This document shows positions 1 to 17,366 of a stretch of DNA of 25,161 bases, piece after piece; positions within the stretch are counted from its first letter, which is position 1; every line of letters starts with the position of its first letter. Both the position numbers and the translations under genes were made by a program. A model generated the notes under the pieces. It saw only the letters and a list, made by a program, of their open reading frames with translations, was not told where the DNA came from and did no database searches. Where the stretch lies: the IMG/VR virus record IMGVR_UViG_3300020184_000031, positions 1 through 25,161 of that record; one strand, written 5' to 3'. The DNA is from a virus.

Positions 1-2
1 AC

Positions 3-1013
3 GACTACCAGAAGTTGTGGGAGCAAACTCAACTTGCAGCAAGGGCTGCCGACCTTGGGCCTGTCGAAAGGGCAATGCTGTGGCGAGAGACGAGCCGTGG
101 GGACGACTGGCACGAAATGCCAGTTCCAATGGACTACTTTCTTACGGACGCATATTATTTTGGTGCTGGTCTTAACCTGCGCGAAGCGATTGGCGATGTT
201 CTCCAAGAGTTTTGGAAGATTGACTCAAACTACGAACTCTGGGTATTCATTGCTGGTATTGGTACGGGGAAGTCTTTCTCCGGTGCGCTCTCTATCGCGT
301 ATGCCCTCTATCTTCTTTCTTGCGTAAAGCGACCTGCACGTTACTTCTCGCGGTTCCCCGGTGTATCTCTTTCTGAAGACTCTGAGATTGTCGTCTTGAA
401 CGCATCTGCTGCTGGCGCTGAACAGGCGTCAAAGGTTGTCTTCGGTGACGTTGTTGAGAGGATTATCAACTCTCCATACTTTGCTGACCACTACGCACCG
501 AACGACCGGGTAAGAAGCGAACTGCTGTTCCCTAACCGAATTAGGTTTTCCCCCGGAACAAGCAGGTGGCAGTCTGCTCTTGGTTGGAACGTCTTTGGTT
601 TCATCGTTGACGAGGCCGCGTTCGGTGTCGAATCACGACGCGCAGACTATGTTGGCGAACTTTTTAAGGCGCTCAACCAGCGTCGCCGCTCTAGGTTTGG
701 GTCACTTGGATTTGGCGCACTTCTTACGTCGCCATCGCACGACCAAGCATTCGTTGAGTCTTTGGCCCGGCAGGGAACAACGTGGGATAACACCATGCTC
801 GTTACCCGCATGAGCACATGGGACGCGAAGGGAGAAATCAAAGAAGGAGAAAAAGTCTTTCTCTTTGACAGGCACCCGAACAGAATGCGAATTATTAAGA
901 CTGGTCTGATTTACAAAGAGCCGGGTGTCGTGATTGACGAGGACGGAAACGAAATTCGTTACCGGTCTGAAATCAACGAGCCAAGCCCAATGTTGGAGGC
1001 TGGTAGTGGCTGA
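3..1013 (+). CDS. terL: Terminase large subunit, ATPase part (5' end outside window)
   Basis: This is the ATPase motor domain that drives DNA into the prohead. The frame is open to the left edge (codons GAC TAC CAG AAG precede the TTG at 15), so the true start lies upstream. Counting from 15, a Walker A motif GIGTGKS is at residues 81-87, a Walker B motif (FGFIVDEAAF, with Asp199 and Glu200) at about 194-203, and a coupling-type motif ending TSPSHD at about 238-243. The ORF stops at TGA 1011-1013, before any nuclease domain, at about the length of an ATPase domain alone. The nuclease domain follows in the +1 frame as a separate ORF. ATPase identity is secure from the motifs. Whether the split is natural or a single-base error cannot be decided from one sequence. 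Confidence 0.9.
   Translation, partial: DYQKLWEQTQLAARAADLGPVERAMLWRETSRGDDWHEMPVPMDYFLTDAYYFGAGLNLREAIGDVLQEFWKIDSNYELWVFIAGIGTGKSFSGALSIAYALYLLSCVKRPARYFSRFPGVSLSEDSEIVVLNASAAGAEQASKVVFGDVVERIINSPYFADHYAPNDRVRSELLFPNRIRFSPGTSRWQSALGWNVFGFIVDEAAFGVESRRADYVGELFKALNQRRRSRFGSLGFGALLTSPSHDQAFVESLARQGTTWDNTMLVTRMSTWDAKGEIKEGEKVFLFDRHPNRMRIIKTGLIYKEPGVVIDEDGNEIRYRSEINEPSPMLEAGSG
995..999 (+). promoter_or_regulatory. Ribosome-binding site for the terminase nuclease gene
   Basis: GGAGG lies six bases before GTG 1006-1008. The start overlaps the upstream stop in GTGGCTGA (1006-1013). This spacing is ideal for initiation and supports a genuine start here rather than the TTG at 934, which has no comparable site. 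Confidence 0.65.
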
Positions 1014-2046
1014 GGGGCTAGAAGGGCTAGACATTATCGCTGTCCCTGAGTCTTACATGGCGGAGTTCCGCCGTGACCCGACCGACTCAATGCTTAAGTA
1101 TGGTGCTCTGCCAACTCGCGCAAGAAGCCCATTCTTTACCGACCCGGAAAAGATTGAGTCCGCAGCACAGTTGCCCAACTTTGTCACCGGTGCTTTGGCT
1201 ACTAAGCGAGTCCACCCGCAGAACTCAGAAATTGAGTGGAACGCTGGTGTAGCGCACCCCACAGAAGACGCTCTTCTTGGTGCGCTAAACCCGGATATGC
1301 TGCAAATGCGGAACGACTGGAACGGTGCCGCTTGGCACGTTCATGTTGACCCCGGTCTTAACCGTGGGCGGAAGGGCGATGCCGCAGGTATTGCGGTCGG
1401 GAGGATTCTTGACCAAGCGGCTGTTGAGGTCGGCTCTGACTACCGCGTCGTAAATCGTTTTGTTGTCCCAATAGTCATGCAGATTGTCGCACCAGAAGCC
1501 GGAGAAATCTTTCTTACTTCAATTACCCGCTTTATTCTGCAAATGCGAGGCTATCTGGGTATCAACATTTCTTCTTTCTCATACGACTCGTTCCAGTCGG
1601 CAGGCGCAATTCAGGAACTTTCCGGCGCAGGTATGGTGACTGCCGGGATGCAGTGGGACGATTATGGGCAAAGACTTGAGGGTCTTGGTAAGCCGTTCTC
1701 AGTTGATAGAACAGTCAATGCGTACCAAGAACTGAAAGAGGCCACTAACGAAGGTCGTATCCTTTTACCCGATTATTGGCCTCTTAAGTCAGAACTTGAG
1801 AGGCTTGAAGACATACCGGGGCGTGCCCCAGACCACCCTGTTGGCGGCTCAAAAGACTGCTCTGACGCCGTTGCTGGCGTAGTTGGATACCTATCTCAAT
1901 ACGGGCACGCTGTTACAACCTCTGGTTTTCAAGCAACTGTGGGTAACAACCAGCAAATTGGTCCAGATATGCAGGCCGCAGAACTCATTAAACTTCTTAA
2001 CGAAATGGGAAGCGATGACCCTCCTGCCATGCTGGCTATTGACTGA
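1006..2046 (+). CDS. terL: Terminase large subunit, nuclease part (separate ORF)
   Basis: This is the RNase H-fold nuclease half of a large terminase, which cuts concatemeric DNA before and after packaging. From GTG 1006 (346 aa), the N-terminus (LDIIAVPESYMAEFRRDP, about 8-25) matches the linker that normally joins the ATPase and nuclease domains. Candidate metal-binding acidic residues are Asp115 (HVHVDPG), Asp193 (FSYDSF) and Asp284/Asp287 (KDCSDAVAG). The frame is open back to TTG 934, but only GTG 1006 has a good Shine-Dalgarno sequence (GGAGG, six bases away), and it overlaps the ATPase stop by eight bases, as expected for translational coupling. Identity as the nuclease half is secure; independent translation is inferred. 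Confidence 0.85.
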   Translation: MAEGLEGLDIIAVPESYMAEFRRDPTDSMLKYGALPTRARSPFFTDPEKIESAAQLPNFVTGALATKRVHPQNSEIEWNAGVAHPTEDALLGALNPDMLQMRNDWNGAAWHVHVDPGLNRGRKGDAAGIAVGRILDQAAVEVGSDYRVVNRFVVPIVMQIVAPEAGEIFLTSITRFILQMRGYLGINISSFSYDSFQSAGAIQELSGAGMVTAGMQWDDYGQRLEGLGKPFSVDRTVNAYQELKEATNEGRILLPDYWPLKSELERLEDIPGRAPDHPVGGSKDCSDAVAGVVGYLSQYGHAVTTSGFQATVGNNQQIGPDMQAAELIKLLNEMGSDDPPAMLAID

Positions 2047-2066: not shown

Positions 2067-2405
2067 ATGGCTCCTAAAATTACTTGTCCAGCCGGTTCCT
2101 ACCACGAGAAGGATGGTAAGGCTGGCGTACAGTGTAAGATTGAAGACTCTTTCCTTTCCTTCCGCGACAACCCTAAGTCGTTGCTCCGTTGGTGCTCTGA
2201 CGAGTATCACCGCTGTCCGGTTTGGATTGCAGAGAAAGAGAACGACCCTGCCGTTGATAAGGCGCAGGGGAAGACGCCTATGACCAACTGCCCGGAATGT
2301 GGTGGTACCGGAATCGAAAAGGTTGAGCGGCTTGTGTCAGGGCTGTTTATCCCCGACGAAGTTCGGTGTGATGGCTGTGTCGGCTCTGGGAAGGTTCCCG
2401 TTTAA
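2067..2405 (+). CDS. Small Cys-rich zinc-finger protein
   Basis: This 112-aa protein has two CxxCxGxG-type motifs, CPECGGTG (75-82) and CDGCVGSG (101-108). These are the repeat units of DnaJ-type zinc-binding domains and would bind one zinc between them. The N-terminal half carries four more cysteines (7, 23, 43, 50), including an RWCSDEYHRCPVW segment that could hold a second metal site. It starts at ATG 2067, 20 bases after the nuclease stop, with only a weak G-rich ribosome-binding site. Its TAA stop shares one base with the portal ATG (TAATG). The position between terminase and portal suggests a role in head assembly or packaging, but the function is unknown. Confidence 0.75.
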   Translation: MAPKITCPAGSYHEKDGKAGVQCKIEDSFLSFRDNPKSLLRWCSDEYHRCPVWIAEKENDPAVDKAQGKTPMTNCPECGGTGIEKVERLVSGLFIPDEVRCDGCVGSGKVPV

Positions 2406-4114
2406 TGGGCGTTTTTGATTTCTTTCGCGACTCTCCTGAGATTAACGGTGAGTCTGCTATTGACGAACTTGAGAAGCAGATTGAGGCTCTTACTGAAGCC
2501 TCTTATCTTGACCAAGCCGCTAACCGAATGTTGGAGCGAAGGCTTGAAGACCTGACGTACAGGTTCTTTGATATGGCTGTCGCTAATTCAGACGACTTGC
2601 CAGACAATCGTCGTAGGATTATCCGTCGTGCCTATAGGTATTGGGCAGAAGACCCCATTGTTGGCCAGTCTCTTAATCTTTTGACTTGGTACACCTTTGG
2701 TCGTGGTGTCCCAATGCCGACGATTCCTGACTACGTTGAGTTGGAAGACGCGCAGAGAAAGGACGCCGAAGCCGCTATTAAGCGCTTCTGGCAGTCAGCA
2801 GAGAATCAGGCCACGCTTTGCACCTTGCAGGCTCAGGAGCAGAAGAGCCTTGAGTTGCAGATTGAGGGCGAAGTCTTCATCGCGATGTTTGACAGCGATG
2901 ATGGGCTTGTCCTGTCTGATATTGACCCAATTGAAATCAGTAACGTAATTGTCTCTACAGACAACCGTAAGATGCCTCTGTATTACGAGCGCACTTATTA
3001 CCCGGCGAAGTATGACTTCAAGACTCGTTCTTACCAGCCTTCAAAGAAGAAGGTAATTAAGTATTACAAGCATTGGCGTAACGAGCCGGGGAACAACGAC
3101 CCGAAGCCGCCCGCTTCACTTCTTGACGGCAGCGCACGCATCATGCACGTTGCCGTAAACCACACCTCTAATCAGACTCGTGGTAACTCTGAGGTCAGAA
3201 GGATTCTTGAGTGGGCGAAGGGGTTCCGTGAGTTCATGGAATCGCGGCTTGCGGTTGCACGGGAAATCAACCGTCTTGCCCGCGTCGTCAAGGTGGACGG
3301 TGGTCCGAGCGAGTTGGCGAAGGTCATTTCGCAGTTCAAGGCGTCGGACCCGCTGAACCTTACTCAGGTTCCTCTTATTGACCCGCAGATTGCTCAGCCG
3401 CAGGCAGCAACGATGTTTAGGACGCCCAATGTAAACATTGAGCCGAATACATTTGAGACTGGTGCTGGCGTTGCTCAGTCTGACAAGGCTTCTTTCCTTG
3501 GTCAGATTGCTGCCGGGACTGGCTGGCCTTCGCACTACCTTGGTGGCGACGGCTCCGCTTCTCTGGCAAATATGACGGCAATGGAGTTGCCCATCCTTAA
3601 GATGGTCGAAGCCCGTCAGGAGTTGTGGGAAAGCGTAATTCGTAATATTACGAAGGAAGCGCTTGTGCGTGCTGGGTTCGATGATATTGAGCCTGAAGTG
3701 ACGATGCCGCCAATCTTGCAGAGGGATACTTCGGCGCTTGCCGGTGCTCTTCAGGCTATGGTCGCAGTTATTGACCCGCAGCAGGAGAATATGTCCGTTA
3801 AGCGCTGGGCTACCAGCCAGTTCTTGTCGTTGTTCGGTGAGAACAATGTTCAGGAGCGGACAAACGAGATTATTAATGAGGCCATCAACCTGCTTGAAGA
3901 CCAAGCAGAGGCAGAGGCAGCGACCGCGCAGCAGCAGGCTGAACAGATTCAGCAGCAGCAGGCCGAGCAGCAGGGGAACCTTGCCGTCCCTGACGACGTA
4001 AATCGTCAGACCAATGCGAGCAGGATGGGCAGAACGCCATACGGCTCTCCGTCCGCTGAGACGATGGCCGACAACCTTGCCGACCCAACTAGGACCGACC
4101 CGCGTAATCAGTGA
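2405..4114 (+). CDS. Portal protein
   Basis: This 569-aa protein is identified as the portal, the dodecameric ring at the capsid vertex through which DNA passes and to which terminase docks. Features typical of portals are an N-terminal region with tryptophan- and tyrosine-rich helices (RRAYRYWAEDP, LLTWYTFGRG), a central beta-rich wing (residues about 150-230), a segment ending SHYLGG followed by NMTAMELPILKMVEARQE, and a low-complexity Gln/Ala-rich tail near 500-525. Length is within the usual 450-600 aa. The start overlaps the preceding stop by one base. The last codons overlap the GTG of the next gene (GTGA). Assignment rests on fold-like pattern plus position next to terminase and a MuF-like protein. 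Confidence 0.85.
   Translation: MGVFDFFRDSPEINGESAIDELEKQIEALTEASYLDQAANRMLERRLEDLTYRFFDMAVANSDDLPDNRRRIIRRAYRYWAEDPIVGQSLNLLTWYTFGRGVPMPTIPDYVELEDAQRKDAEAAIKRFWQSAENQATLCTLQAQEQKSLELQIEGEVFIAMFDSDDGLVLSDIDPIEISNVIVSTDNRKMPLYYERTYYPAKYDFKTRSYQPSKKKVIKYYKHWRNEPGNNDPKPPASLLDGSARIMHVAVNHTSNQTRGNSEVRRILEWAKGFREFMESRLAVAREINRLARVVKVDGGPSELAKVISQFKASDPLNLTQVPLIDPQIAQPQAATMFRTPNVNIEPNTFETGAGVAQSDKASFLGQIAAGTGWPSHYLGGDGSASLANMTAMELPILKMVEARQELWESVIRNITKEALVRAGFDDIEPEVTMPPILQRDTSALAGALQAMVAVIDPQQENMSVKRWATSQFLSLFGENNVQERTNEIINEAINLLEDQAEAEAATAQQQAEQIQQQQAEQQGNLAVPDDVNRQTNASRMGRTPYGSPSAETMADNLADPTRTDPRNQ
3927..3974 (+). repeat. CAG-rich low-complexity tract inside the portal gene
   Basis: Runs of CAG codons interrupted by GCT, GAA and ATT encode a Gln-rich segment near the portal C-terminus. 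It is likely flexible and could be prone to length change by slippage. Confidence 0.6.
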
Positions 4115-9155: not shown

Positions 9156-9412
9156 TACTCAGGAAGCGGCTCTAAGTTGCCTACGTCGGGGAGTACCGGG
9201 TCAGGAGCGCTGAGAATGATTGCATCACGGTCTGCCGGAATGTCAGTTACATCTGGGTCTGCAAGCATACGAGCAGTCTCCGCAGCAACCAACTCGTCGC
9301 CAGCGATGCGGGCACGTTCCTTGATTGCGTTCTCGGTCCACTGCTGAGGGTCGGCCATGACGTATGACAGGGCCTTTACTTCTACTTCGGTAAGAGTAAT
9401 AGAAATGTCCAC
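9155..9412 (-). CDS. Small conserved tail-fibre-associated protein
   Basis: This 85-aa acidic protein begins ISITLTEVEVKALSYVMADP, followed by QQWTENAIKERARIAGDELV. This pattern (a short strand, then a helix with Asp-Pro and Trp, then an Ala/Glu-rich helix) recurs in small proteins next to fibre genes of many tailed phages, where an assembly role is usually proposed. The C-terminus is Pro/Asp-rich. It lies between two fibre genes with overlapping or abutting ends. The family resemblance is from memory and has not been checked. Confidence 0.6.
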   Translation of the reverse strand: MDISITLTEVEVKALSYVMADPQQWTENAIKERARIAGDELVAAETARMLADPDVTDIPADRDAIILSAPDPVLPDVGNLEPLPE

Positions 9413-10045
9413 CTACGATACCTTCCATCCAACAAAGTAGTTGTTCTGGTTGTAGTGCGTCTGTCCTACGTTCATGTAGACGCCTACCGTGTCGTTGGCG
9501 CTAAGCGAAAAGATGACAATGCCGGGGTTTAGGGCGACGTAGGTGCTGGTCCCGTTCTGCGTGTATGTGCGCCAGTAGGCAGCACCGTTGAGCAGGAAGT
9601 AAACCTGCGCCGATTGTCCCGCTTCCGTGAACGCGCTAAACGTAAAGAAATACTTCCCAGCGGCAGGCGCAGTAAATAGACCAGTAGTAGGGTTGAAGTG
9701 GTTGCCGACGTTGGCGTTCACATCAACGTAGGTGTTCCATGTGCCCGTTGCCGTTGTCCCTGCCGTGGCCCGCGCAGCAAACATCGGCTGGTACGGAAGG
9801 CTTACACGACCAGCAGCGTCACTCTCAATAGACTTCTTCGGCACATTGAACGTGGTTGAGCCGTCGCCAACTCCGTAAGTGGTGCCAATCGCGCTAAACA
9901 GGTCGGCATAGTCGGTGCGGGAGATAGCCTGACCGTCTACCTCAATCCAGCCCGTGGGGATGTTCTGCCCCGGCCAATCGTGGATGATGGTCCCAACGGG
10001 GGCAGGCTGAACAGCGTTGACGAACTGTGCGCCAATCTGGGCCAT
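9413..10045 (-). CDS. Short tail collar / C1q-head fibre protein
   Basis: The 210-aa protein combines a phage tail collar domain (about 16-72: PAPVGTIIHDWPG, GWIEVDGQAISRTDYADLF, GDGSTTFNVP) with a C1q-like domain (about 86-210: NHFNPTTGLFTAPAAGKYFF, VGVYMNVGQTHYN). Collar domains occur in short tail fibres and in adhesins. In most collar proteins a His-rich region follows; here it is replaced directly by the C1q head, so this is a domain swap relative to the proteins at 13153-14019 and 16203-17366. ATG 10045 overlaps the preceding stop by one base. A host-binding tip function is inferred. Confidence 0.8.
   Translation of the reverse strand: MAQIGAQFVNAVQPAPVGTIIHDWPGQNIPTGWIEVDGQAISRTDYADLFSAIGTTYGVGDGSTTFNVPKKSIESDAAGRVSLPYQPMFAARATAGTTATGTWNTYVDVNANVGNHFNPTTGLFTAPAAGKYFFTFSAFTEAGQSAQVYFLLNGAAYWRTYTQNGTSTYVALNPGIVIFSLSANDTVGVYMNVGQTHYNQNNYFVGWKVS
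9846..9869 (-). repeat. Collar-module DNA repeat, copy 1
   Basis: These 24 bases match 13607-13630 at 21 positions by eye. They encode the GDGSTTFN strand of the collar domain. Confidence 0.65.
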
Positions 10046-13152: not shown

Positions 13153-14019
13153 TTAGTTACCCATAAATACAGTAAAGGCTTCGCTTGCTTCGGCGTGTGA
13201 GTCACCGAGAAGCGTGGAGTACGTCGCCTTGATGATGTAGTTCAGCGCGATGTATGGCTGCATGTTGTTGTGAGAGCCGTCGCCACCAGTATTCTGGTTA
13301 GTCGCTGTCGCTTGGTTGATAGACAGAGCAATAGGCGTTGTCACAATGTCCGGCTCGCCGGGAGTGGTGTCTGTAACAGAAATTGTGTTTGAGTTGCCGG
13401 GGCTTACCCGGATAAGACCATAACCACCAAGGCCAGCATTAGCATTGTGGGTGTGACCGTGCGCGTTCTGCGTGTGGGTGTGAGACGGCATTTCAGCGGT
13501 AGACAACTGGTGCGTCTCCGCGCCACCAGTAGAGCCAAGCGTGCGGTCTGTAAGCCCAGTCCCCTGTCCGCTACCAATCATCGTGCGTCCACGCATATCT
13601 GGAAGGGTGAACGTAGTTGAGCCGTCACCAGCACCAAACATCGTGCCTATAAGCCCAGCGTTGTCCGCAAGTGCAAATAAGTCGGCGTAAGCAGTGCGGC
13701 TGAGGGTTGAGCCGTCACATGAAAGAAAACCCACAGGTGGGGTTGAGAAAAGATATGGGACAACAGTCCCAATTGGTACATCAACCGCAAGGTAAGCGAA
13801 CTCTCCAACTCCGGACGGATTTGCCCGGACAATCTGGTTTGGCGACCCAGTTTCCATCTTTGAAAACTGAATGCCAGCGCTGGTGTCTACATTTGCGTTG
13901 ACAATCTTTTGCCACGACGCATTACCATCAGCGTCGCTGACAATCACCTTGTCAGACGCAGGACTGCCGCCCGTAAGTTTTAGGGCGACAGTCTCAAGTG
14001 TCTTTAGGATTCGGGGCAT
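13153..14019 (-). CDS. Tail collar domain protein, His-rich
   Basis: The 288-aa protein has an N-terminal stalk-like region (1-75), a collar domain (about 81-145: VPIGTVVPYLFSTPPVGFLS, SRTAYADLF, GAGDGSTTFTLPDMRGR), then a His-rich loop (170-191; ETHQLSTAEMPSHTHTQNAH and further HxH). It closes with HNNMQPYIALNYIIKA (250-265) and a short extra tail. HxH motifs in such fibres (T4 gp12, gp37) bind metal along the trimer axis. This layout matches short tail fibre and 'microcystin-dependent protein' families. ATG 14019 follows a GGGGGG ribosome-binding site. A role in cell attachment is inferred. Confidence 0.85.
   Translation of the reverse strand: MPRILKTLETVALKLTGGSPASDKVIVSDADGNASWQKIVNANVDTSAGIQFSKMETGSPNQIVRANPSGVGEFAYLAVDVPIGTVVPYLFSTPPVGFLSCDGSTLSRTAYADLFALADNAGLIGTMFGAGDGSTTFTLPDMRGRTMIGSGQGTGLTDRTLGSTGGAETHQLSTAEMPSHTHTQNAHGHTHNANAGLGGYGLIRVSPGNSNTISVTDTTPGEPDIVTTPIALSINQATATNQNTGGDGSHNNMQPYIALNYIIKATYSTLLGDSHAEASEAFTVFMGN
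13607..13630 (-). repeat. Collar-module DNA repeat, copy 2
   Basis: This pairs with 9846-9869 (21 of 24 bases). It encodes the same GDGSTTF strand in the second collar protein. Confidence 0.65.
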
Positions 14020-15829: not shown

Positions 15830-16203
15830 CGGGTTACCTCTGGGTTCACAATAAAGTCACCGTGCAGAAGGCGCGTAACGTCACCGCTCCCAGAAATCAA
15901 CTCTAGGTCATACACGCCGACAAGCGCGTCTGAAAAACCACTTGGAACAGCGGTCGAAAAACCAGCAGTAGCGGTGTCGGAAATATAAAGCGTAATAGTC
16001 CCGTTTGACCCGCCAAGCGTAATTCCACCGTTGGCCGTCGTAAGTTCAACAATTGTTGATGACGCCGACATTGTCGTCCGCGCCTGCATTCTTGCGCTGT
16101 ACCCACTCAGGTTTACAAGTGCGCCAGAAGAGTCTTTCCACGTTATCGTCTTGCGGAAAGTCGCACCTTGGTCCACAACAATGTCATATCTACCAGAAGT
16201 CAT
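15826..16203 (-). CDS. Small beta-sandwich baseplate/tail protein
   Basis: The 125-aa protein shows a pattern familiar from many tailed phages: DIVVDQGATFRKTITWKDSS near the N-terminus, then LVNLSGYSARMQART, GTITLYISDT, VYDLELIS and TRLLHGDFIVNPEVTR at the end. Proteins of this type lie beside fibre genes and are considered virion structural proteins, although a precise role is not established. The start ATG shares one base with the preceding stop, and its own stop overlaps the next start. The family resemblance is strong; the function is open. Confidence 0.7.
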   Translation of the reverse strand: MTSGRYDIVVDQGATFRKTITWKDSSGALVNLSGYSARMQARTTMSASSTIVELTTANGGITLGGSNGTITLYISDTATAGFSTAVPSGFSDALVGVYDLELISGSGDVTRLLHGDFIVNPEVTR

Positions 16204-17366
16204 TAGTACCTAATAATGTGGTTCAAAATGATTGTCGGCTGAGTATTCTGGTGAGCAGAAGATGCGTTGAGAGCAGTCACGGTGTGAACATGGGAACCGC
16301 CGGTAACAGAGTGCGAGTGACGGGCCGTTGCGCCGCCCAAACCGGCAAGGCCATATCCGCCGTACTGCGCAGCAGAGTTAATGTTTGCACTTGACTCGGC
16401 GTTGTAGGTCTGCACCAGCGCACCGCCGCCGGGAATGGCGTGCGAGTGGTCGGGTGTATCAACACCAACGGTGTGACTATGCCCGCCATCAGCGTTGACG
16501 CTATGCGCTGGCATACCAGACTGCGAAGAGTTCAACTGATGCGTTTCAGAGCCACCGGCACTTCCAAGCAAGGTCCCAGTAACACCAGAACCACCAGTAG
16601 TCAGCCTGCCCGCGGTGCTGCCGTTCATATTGTCCTTACCCGCAACAACCCTGCCACGCAGGTCTGGGAGCCGGAAAAACCCAGAAGTCTCGGCACCGTT
16701 GTTGTAATCGGTTCCGATAACTGAAAACAGGTCAGCGTATGTGCTTTCAGAAATCTCTTGACCTGCGCAGAGCAAATACTGTGCAGGAGCAGACGAGCCA
16801 GCAAACGGGATAACAGAACCGACCGGAACAAGAAGATTCTGAAGTGCTACCGCAAGGTCGCTAAGAACAATTGTGTTGTCAACAATTTGAGTTGAGCCAA
16901 CCGAAGACGCGGGCAATGGGTCGGTAGTAAGGGTGTGCATGTGGCCATGCTTCCCATACCCAGCAATCTGGACAAGTGAAGAAAGCGCTGAAGACCCGTC
17001 CCAAGAAACAGTCGCTACCTTACGGTAGTTTGCGGCGCTTGGAACTCCCGTACCCGCAACCTTTTCAAGCGCAAAAGCCGACAAAGAATCGTCGTCGCTT
17101 GTGGTCGCAAAAATCCCATACGTTCCGGAGGCATCAGAACCAGTAAAAGCGACGCTTAGCGGCGTTTCAATGTAACGGAACTTGTCATCAATCGTAATTG
17201 ACGAAACACTGTTCCCGGCCCCGGCGTTGAGGACGACCGAAGTTCCAGAGATAGCCAAAGCCATATTAGTGGCCTGACCGGCTTCGATTTCCTGAATTCG
17301 ATTGAGGAACTGGGCAGCAACAATCGTAGTCCCGTCAACAAAATCAACCTGCTTTGGTGCGGCCAC
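16203..17366 (-). CDS. Large tail collar protein with His-rich metal-binding-like region
   Basis: The 387-aa protein has an N-terminal beta domain (1-135) that may attach to the baseplate, a short GYGKHGHMHTL stretch (136-146), a collar domain (about 180-240: VPVGSVIPFAGSSAPAQYLL, ESTYADLFSVIG, FFRLPDLRGRV) and a long C-terminal region with repeated HxH motifs (GHSH, DHSH, RHSHS, SHVHT; 288-361) ending HQNTQPTIILNHIIRY. In T4 gp12 and gp37 such HxH motifs bind metal on the trimer axis. The start is GTG 17366 with a GGGGG ribosome-binding site. It is probably a short tail fibre or baseplate spike-associated protein. Confidence 0.85.
   Translation of the reverse strand: MAAPKQVDFVDGTTIVAAQFLNRIQEIEAGQATNMALAISGTSVVLNAGAGNSVSSITIDDKFRYIETPLSVAFTGSDASGTYGIFATTSDDDSLSAFALEKVAGTGVPSAANYRKVATVSWDGSSALSSLVQIAGYGKHGHMHTLTTDPLPASSVGSTQIVDNTIVLSDLAVALQNLLVPVGSVIPFAGSSAPAQYLLCAGQEISESTYADLFSVIGTDYNNGAETSGFFRLPDLRGRVVAGKDNMNGSTAGRLTTGGSGVTGTLLGSAGGSETHQLNSSQSGMPAHSVNADGGHSHTVGVDTPDHSHAIPGGGALVQTYNAESSANINSAAQYGGYGLAGLGGATARHSHSVTGGSHVHTVTALNASSAHQNTQPTIILNHIIRY

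Follow-up and report, generated by a model that had tools for sequence, protein, structure and literature searches.

The terminase locus

The large terminase subunit (TerL) pumps DNA into the virus head and is normally a single protein in which a motor half is joined to a cutting half. In the 25,161-nucleotide stretch analysed here (IMG/VR record IMGVR_UViG_3300020184_000031, positions 1 to 25,161; hereafter the window), these halves occupy two overlapping reading frames, and, judging from sequence, the window very probably represents a two-gene large terminase of uncultured tailed phages that form a small family. The ATPase frame (frame 3) is open from 3 to 1010 and ends at TGA 1011-1013, while its start lies outside the window, the related contig L006 having an ATG nine codons upstream that gives a full length of 345 amino acids. 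The nuclease frame is +1 relative to the ATPase frame and extends from GTG 1006-1008 to TGA 2044-2046 (346 amino acids). Six bases separate GTG 1006 from a Shine-Dalgarno (SD) sequence, GGAGG, and this GTG is the sole ATG or GTG codon in the nuclease frame from the upstream stop to the ATPase stop. The positions of GGAGG, GTG and TGA, together with both motif sets, had been reported in a first-pass annotation and were verified. The features of the locus are as follows.

1-1013, + strand: TerL ATPase gene; PHROG 2 terminase large subunit, E 9.6e-6; model predicted local distance difference test score (pLDDT) 86.5
255-275, + strand: Walker A motif GIGTGKS; K99 invariant among 46 relatives
600-617, + strand: Walker B motif FIVDEA; D212 and E213 invariant among 46 relatives
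995-999, + strand: Shine-Dalgarno sequence GGAGG; early starts of a 50-kb relative show SD enrichment
1006-1013, + strand: junction GTGGCTGA, the 8-base overlap of ATPase stop and nuclease start; identical in contigs L001, L004, L005 and L006, arranged otherwise in the distant relative G005
1006-2046, + strand: TerL nuclease gene, 346 amino acids; model pLDDT 76.6; best structural matches T4 gp17 (Z 16.5) and G20c TerL nuclease (Z 16.4)
1048-1104, + strand: helix pair SYMAEFRRDPTDSMLKYG, predicted helices at residues 15-23 and 25-33; motif aligned in one-chain relatives
1342-1356, + strand: nuclease motif HVDPG (D115), invariant in 47 relatives
1582-1599, + strand: nuclease motif YDSFQS; D194 invariant in 47 relatives
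1846-1875, + strand: nuclease motif GSKDCSDAVA; D284 and D287 invariant in 47 relatives

Conservation of the junction in near relatives

The junction was compared with that of four other contigs, i.e., L001, L005 (the contig of L002), L006 (the 50,031-bp contig of L003) and L004, whose source metagenomes are 3300023108, 3300018426, 3300017985 and 3300006802, and it was found to be base-for-base the same in all five sequences. Across the gene pair, L004 differs from the window by 119 substitutions in 2044 bases (~6%) with zero indels. The ATPase gene carries 75 of these, 61 of them at third positions and causing 12 amino-acid changes, while the nuclease gene carries 44, of which 41 are at third positions and only two amino acids change. 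This pattern indicates that both halves are under purifying selection, each in its own frame. A one-base sequencing error, which the first-pass annotation had kept as a possibility, is excluded by this comparison, because L004 has diverged at 119 of 2044 bases without an indel and mostly at third positions.

The broader proposal that the split reflects a sequencing or assembly error, or else a broken gene, draws on the metagenomic origin of the contigs and on the single-frame TerL that relatives normally possess. It is nevertheless scarcely credible, as the junction recurs in four contigs of separate samples, one of them being 6% diverged with synonymous-biased change, and a relative at 54-58% identity is split too. 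Furthermore, the relaxed selection expected of a decaying gene is not seen, and no second, intact TerL match was found in these records.

A distant relative with a different junction

A degenerate pattern for DHPVGGxKD retrieved this more distant relative, G005 (contig IMGVR_UViG_3300044940_000144, 75,957 bp). Over the full alignment, its ATPase shares 54% identity, and its nuclease 58%, with the window counterparts. Its TerL is split at a site homologous to that of the window, the ATPase ending in ...PAEDEGV at a TAG codon that is followed by 33 bases and then, in the same frame, by the ATG that starts the nuclease (MSQKINGRDVVAIP...). The layouts thus differ, the window showing an overlap and a +1 frame, whereas in G005 a gap separates halves that share one frame. 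The two lineages show no conservation of the protein ends flanking the break. Ahead of the G005 nuclease ATG, TATGCTTTGCAT resembles, as judged by eye, the -10 box of a leaderless message.

The first-pass annotation had proposed two genes with a proper start for the second, and had suggested a comparison with related phages for a conserved split. This proposal is supported by five split relatives, the four near ones and G005, the latter by a different junction, and no continuous frame was found within the clade. Judged by these junctions, the split itself is conserved, whereas the frame relation is not, which disfavours programmed +1 frameshifting or readthrough; two genes explain both junctions, whereas a recoding signal would need to differ in kind between them.

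Translation signals and recoding

In the 50-kb relative, an SD motif of at least 4 bases is found ahead of 41 of 185 early start codons, other GTG starts among them, as against 39 of 552 internal codons (Fisher p 8.8e-8), while GGAGG or AGGAG at a spacing of 4-9 precedes only three of 400 internal in-frame ATG or GTG codons. The combination of SD sequence and GTG at the window junction is therefore more than chance, being shared with four other contigs and involving a 5-base SD that is rare at internal codons. A further GTG start with GGAGG at a spacing of six occurs in this 50-kb relative, at position 9351 of G001.

A programmed +1 ribosomal frameshift immediately ahead of TGA 1011 could also give a single protein, since the frames differ by +1 with an open overlap at 934-1013 and the ATPase frame ends at UGA, as does the prfB shift site. 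Such a shift is, however, improbable. In place of a slippery P-site codon with an SD about three bases upstream, the last sense codon is GGC, which would have to re-pair with GCU through a middle-base mismatch, and the SD lies eight bases from GGC, yet six from GTG. The RNA fold at the junction is ordinary, matching that of shuffled sequences (z -1.04 and -1.59), a downstream hairpin has an uncompensated change in L004, and the +1 relation is absent in G005. The earlier opinion that a prfB-like frameshift is the less likely option is hence shared here. An 81-base substitution-free stretch in L004 was considered as conservation of a recoding signal, and was dropped as evidence because it is only the fourth longest of the gene pair, three longer ones lying elsewhere in it.

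Recoding might instead bridge the split lineage by lineage, with stop readthrough or bypassing in G005 and frameshifting in the window yielding a fused TerL in both. In G005 the halves share a frame across one TAG and 33 bases, and PMC5009743 cites a probable bypass for the terminase of Streptomyces phage Hau3. This is nonetheless very improbable, as two different recoding events would be required at one place, both nuclease genes possess a plausible start of their own, and the protein ends at the break are, as noted, not conserved.

Domains and predicted structures

The ATPase and nuclease were modelled separately by AlphaFold with their relatives, followed by a fold search. The best matches to the ATPase model were the P74-26 TerL ATPase (Z 18.1; 206 residues, root-mean-square deviation (rmsd) 3.6) and HK97 TerL (Z 18.1), with a structural alignment that reaches approximately residue 305 and a pLDDT below 50 in the last twelve residues (334-345). 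The ATPase gene product thus combines Walker A and B motifs, bearing invariant K, D and E residues, with a predicted TerL ATPase fold. The nuclease model adopts the RNase H-like TerL nuclease fold (G20c match: 179 residues, rmsd 2.7), with a pLDDT below 50 at residues 1-3, and contains three invariant acidic positions, D115, D194 and D284/D287, which are presumably the catalytic ones, as in T4 and G20c TerL. Taken singly, each half is predicted to form a complete domain, with low confidence at the end adjoining the break. In both the window and G005, the two domains lie in separate open frames that each have their own stop and start, and not in one continuous coding frame. A sequence-profile search of the PDB returned no terminase match, while in Pfam the ATPase had no match and the nuclease had one, under the curated cut-off.

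The models place the break ~38 residues ahead of the nuclease domain, because the structural match of the nuclease starts only near residue 38-41. Nuclease residues 1-38 correspond to the VPxxYxxxFxxDPxxALRDxAG stretch found between the domains of one-chain relatives, and the conserved linker helix pair (residues 15-23 and 25-33) is accordingly predicted to be retained on the nuclease chain.

Distribution of the split

A collection of 79 IMG/VR loci (L022-L100) was assembled by nuclease profile, and 77 of these encode both domains in a single open reading frame (ORF), the other two beginning at a contig end; all ten GenBank phages read in detail likewise have a single-ORF TerL. With the nuclease alignment, no relatives were found in bacterial and archaeal genomes. 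In a maximum-likelihood tree, the nucleases of the window, L004 and G005 form one clade with a support of 100/100 and a long stem. By these comparisons the split is a derived state, the single TerL gene of earlier phages having been broken in the clade ancestor.

An apparently independent split, known from one contig, was observed in L118 (IMGVR_UViG_3300002378_000134), where TerL ATPase and nuclease are adjacent ORFs in the same frame under the standard code. Its junction (1330-1344) comprises a TGA, an SD-like AGGTGG and an ATG nine bases past the stop. The split is at another position, the GC content is lower, and L118 groups with one-chain relatives elsewhere in the tree (96/86), although its exact place is unsure because of the single contig and the long branch. 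The L118 TGA was considered as a recoded codon, which is unlikely because TerL alone among the large ORFs merges under code 4.

In-frame inserts of ~260-410 amino acids within the TerL ATPase, probably inteins, are present in nine loci (L012, L013, L040, L045, L059, L063, L073, L079 and L099), most of them directly after the P-loop at profile position ~102.

Comparison with known systems

The closest known relatives, i.e., the one-chain TerL proteins of Vibrio SIO-2-, Gordonia GMA3-, Rhodococcus ReqiDocB7- and Streptomyces Faust-like phages, share the same motifs and are homologous in both halves at ~25-35% identity, but a single gene is present in all ten annotated examples read, sometimes with an in-frame insert. 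T4 gp17 and the G20c and P74-26 TerL proteins share both folds with the window proteins (Z up to 18.1 for the ATPase and up to 16.5 for the nuclease), yet consist of one chain and are only 8-18% identical to them.

Among divided terminases, the TerL domains of Parabacteroides phage PDS1 (MN929097) occur as two coding sequences, for which the authors suggest a codon-table or assembly cause (PMC10773633). The PDS1 nuclease coding sequence is annotated at 148 amino acids only, the two frames read like a single uninterrupted protein into which a shift of frame has been introduced, and, as a difference from the window, conservation of the PDS1 split is not established. In the Jug phages (PMC12363816) and the Bastillevirinae (PMC11878797), terL pieces are split by group I introns and rejoined by RNA splicing, whereas terL of the window has no intervening sequence, its pieces overlapping by 8 bases and those of G005 being 33 bases apart. 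The Hau3 terminase may use bypassing (PMC5009743). None of these cases represents a conserved two-gene TerL, and no clear account of one was found in the open-licence literature searched. The SEA-PHAGES function names appear to include separate TerL ATPase and nuclease domains, so precedents beyond that literature are possible.

Proposed mechanism and significance

Comparison shows that the break occurred in a variable stretch ~38 residues before the nuclease domain. Ribosomes ending the ATPase at UGA 1011 would restart at GUG 1006, aided by GGAGG, and such coupled initiation would therefore yield the two halves in linked amounts. As products of two neighbouring genes, the motor and cutting halves would have to find each other after synthesis and assemble without a covalent link; the helix pair of the nuclease chain may dock on the ATPase and so hold the motor together without a peptide bond.

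Several points weigh against this two-gene interpretation. The claim of two products is drawn from DNA sequence and predicted structures; a low level of fused protein may be made by frameshifting; an intact TerL may be encoded elsewhere in the genome, because the records of G001, G005 and the window are, or may be, incomplete; and the -10-like box of G005 is a by-eye candidate.

It is conceivable, if unlikely, that the nuclease is a separable motor subunit that binds when packaging starts and when it terminates, and is free to dissociate while DNA is being translocated, in which case cutting would be controlled by assembly and not by movement within one chain. TerL is used as a one-gene marker for tailed phages, and models treat it as a single chain in which the nuclease domain moves with the ATPase. 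A conserved two-gene TerL would demonstrate that nature can dispense with the peptide link, and would offer a ready system for motor-nuclease communication, in which the halves can be made, changed or omitted separately. It also cautions against treating every split terminase in a metagenome as a fault of assembly.

Neighbouring genes and other features

The portal gene (2405-4114) lies just downstream of the TerL pair. Between the nuclease and portal genes, the window encodes a 112-amino-acid cysteine-rich protein with DnaJ-like CxxCxGxG motifs (2067-2405, + strand), a homologue of which is present in G005 (L131). Boxes resembling a -10 element (TAGAAT and TAAGAT) are located 6-7 bases ahead of the ATG in both cysteine-rich protein genes, in the style of leaderless messages. 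Three tail-collar/tail-fibre paralogues occur in one tail module of the window (9413-10045, 13153-14019, 16203-17366 (-)), which adjoins a baseplate wedge gene, pointing to a myovirus-like phage that may have several receptor-binding proteins. Finally, a tRNA-Leu with anticodon CAA is encoded by both G001 (L132, 1690-1765) and G005 (L141, 14172-14254).
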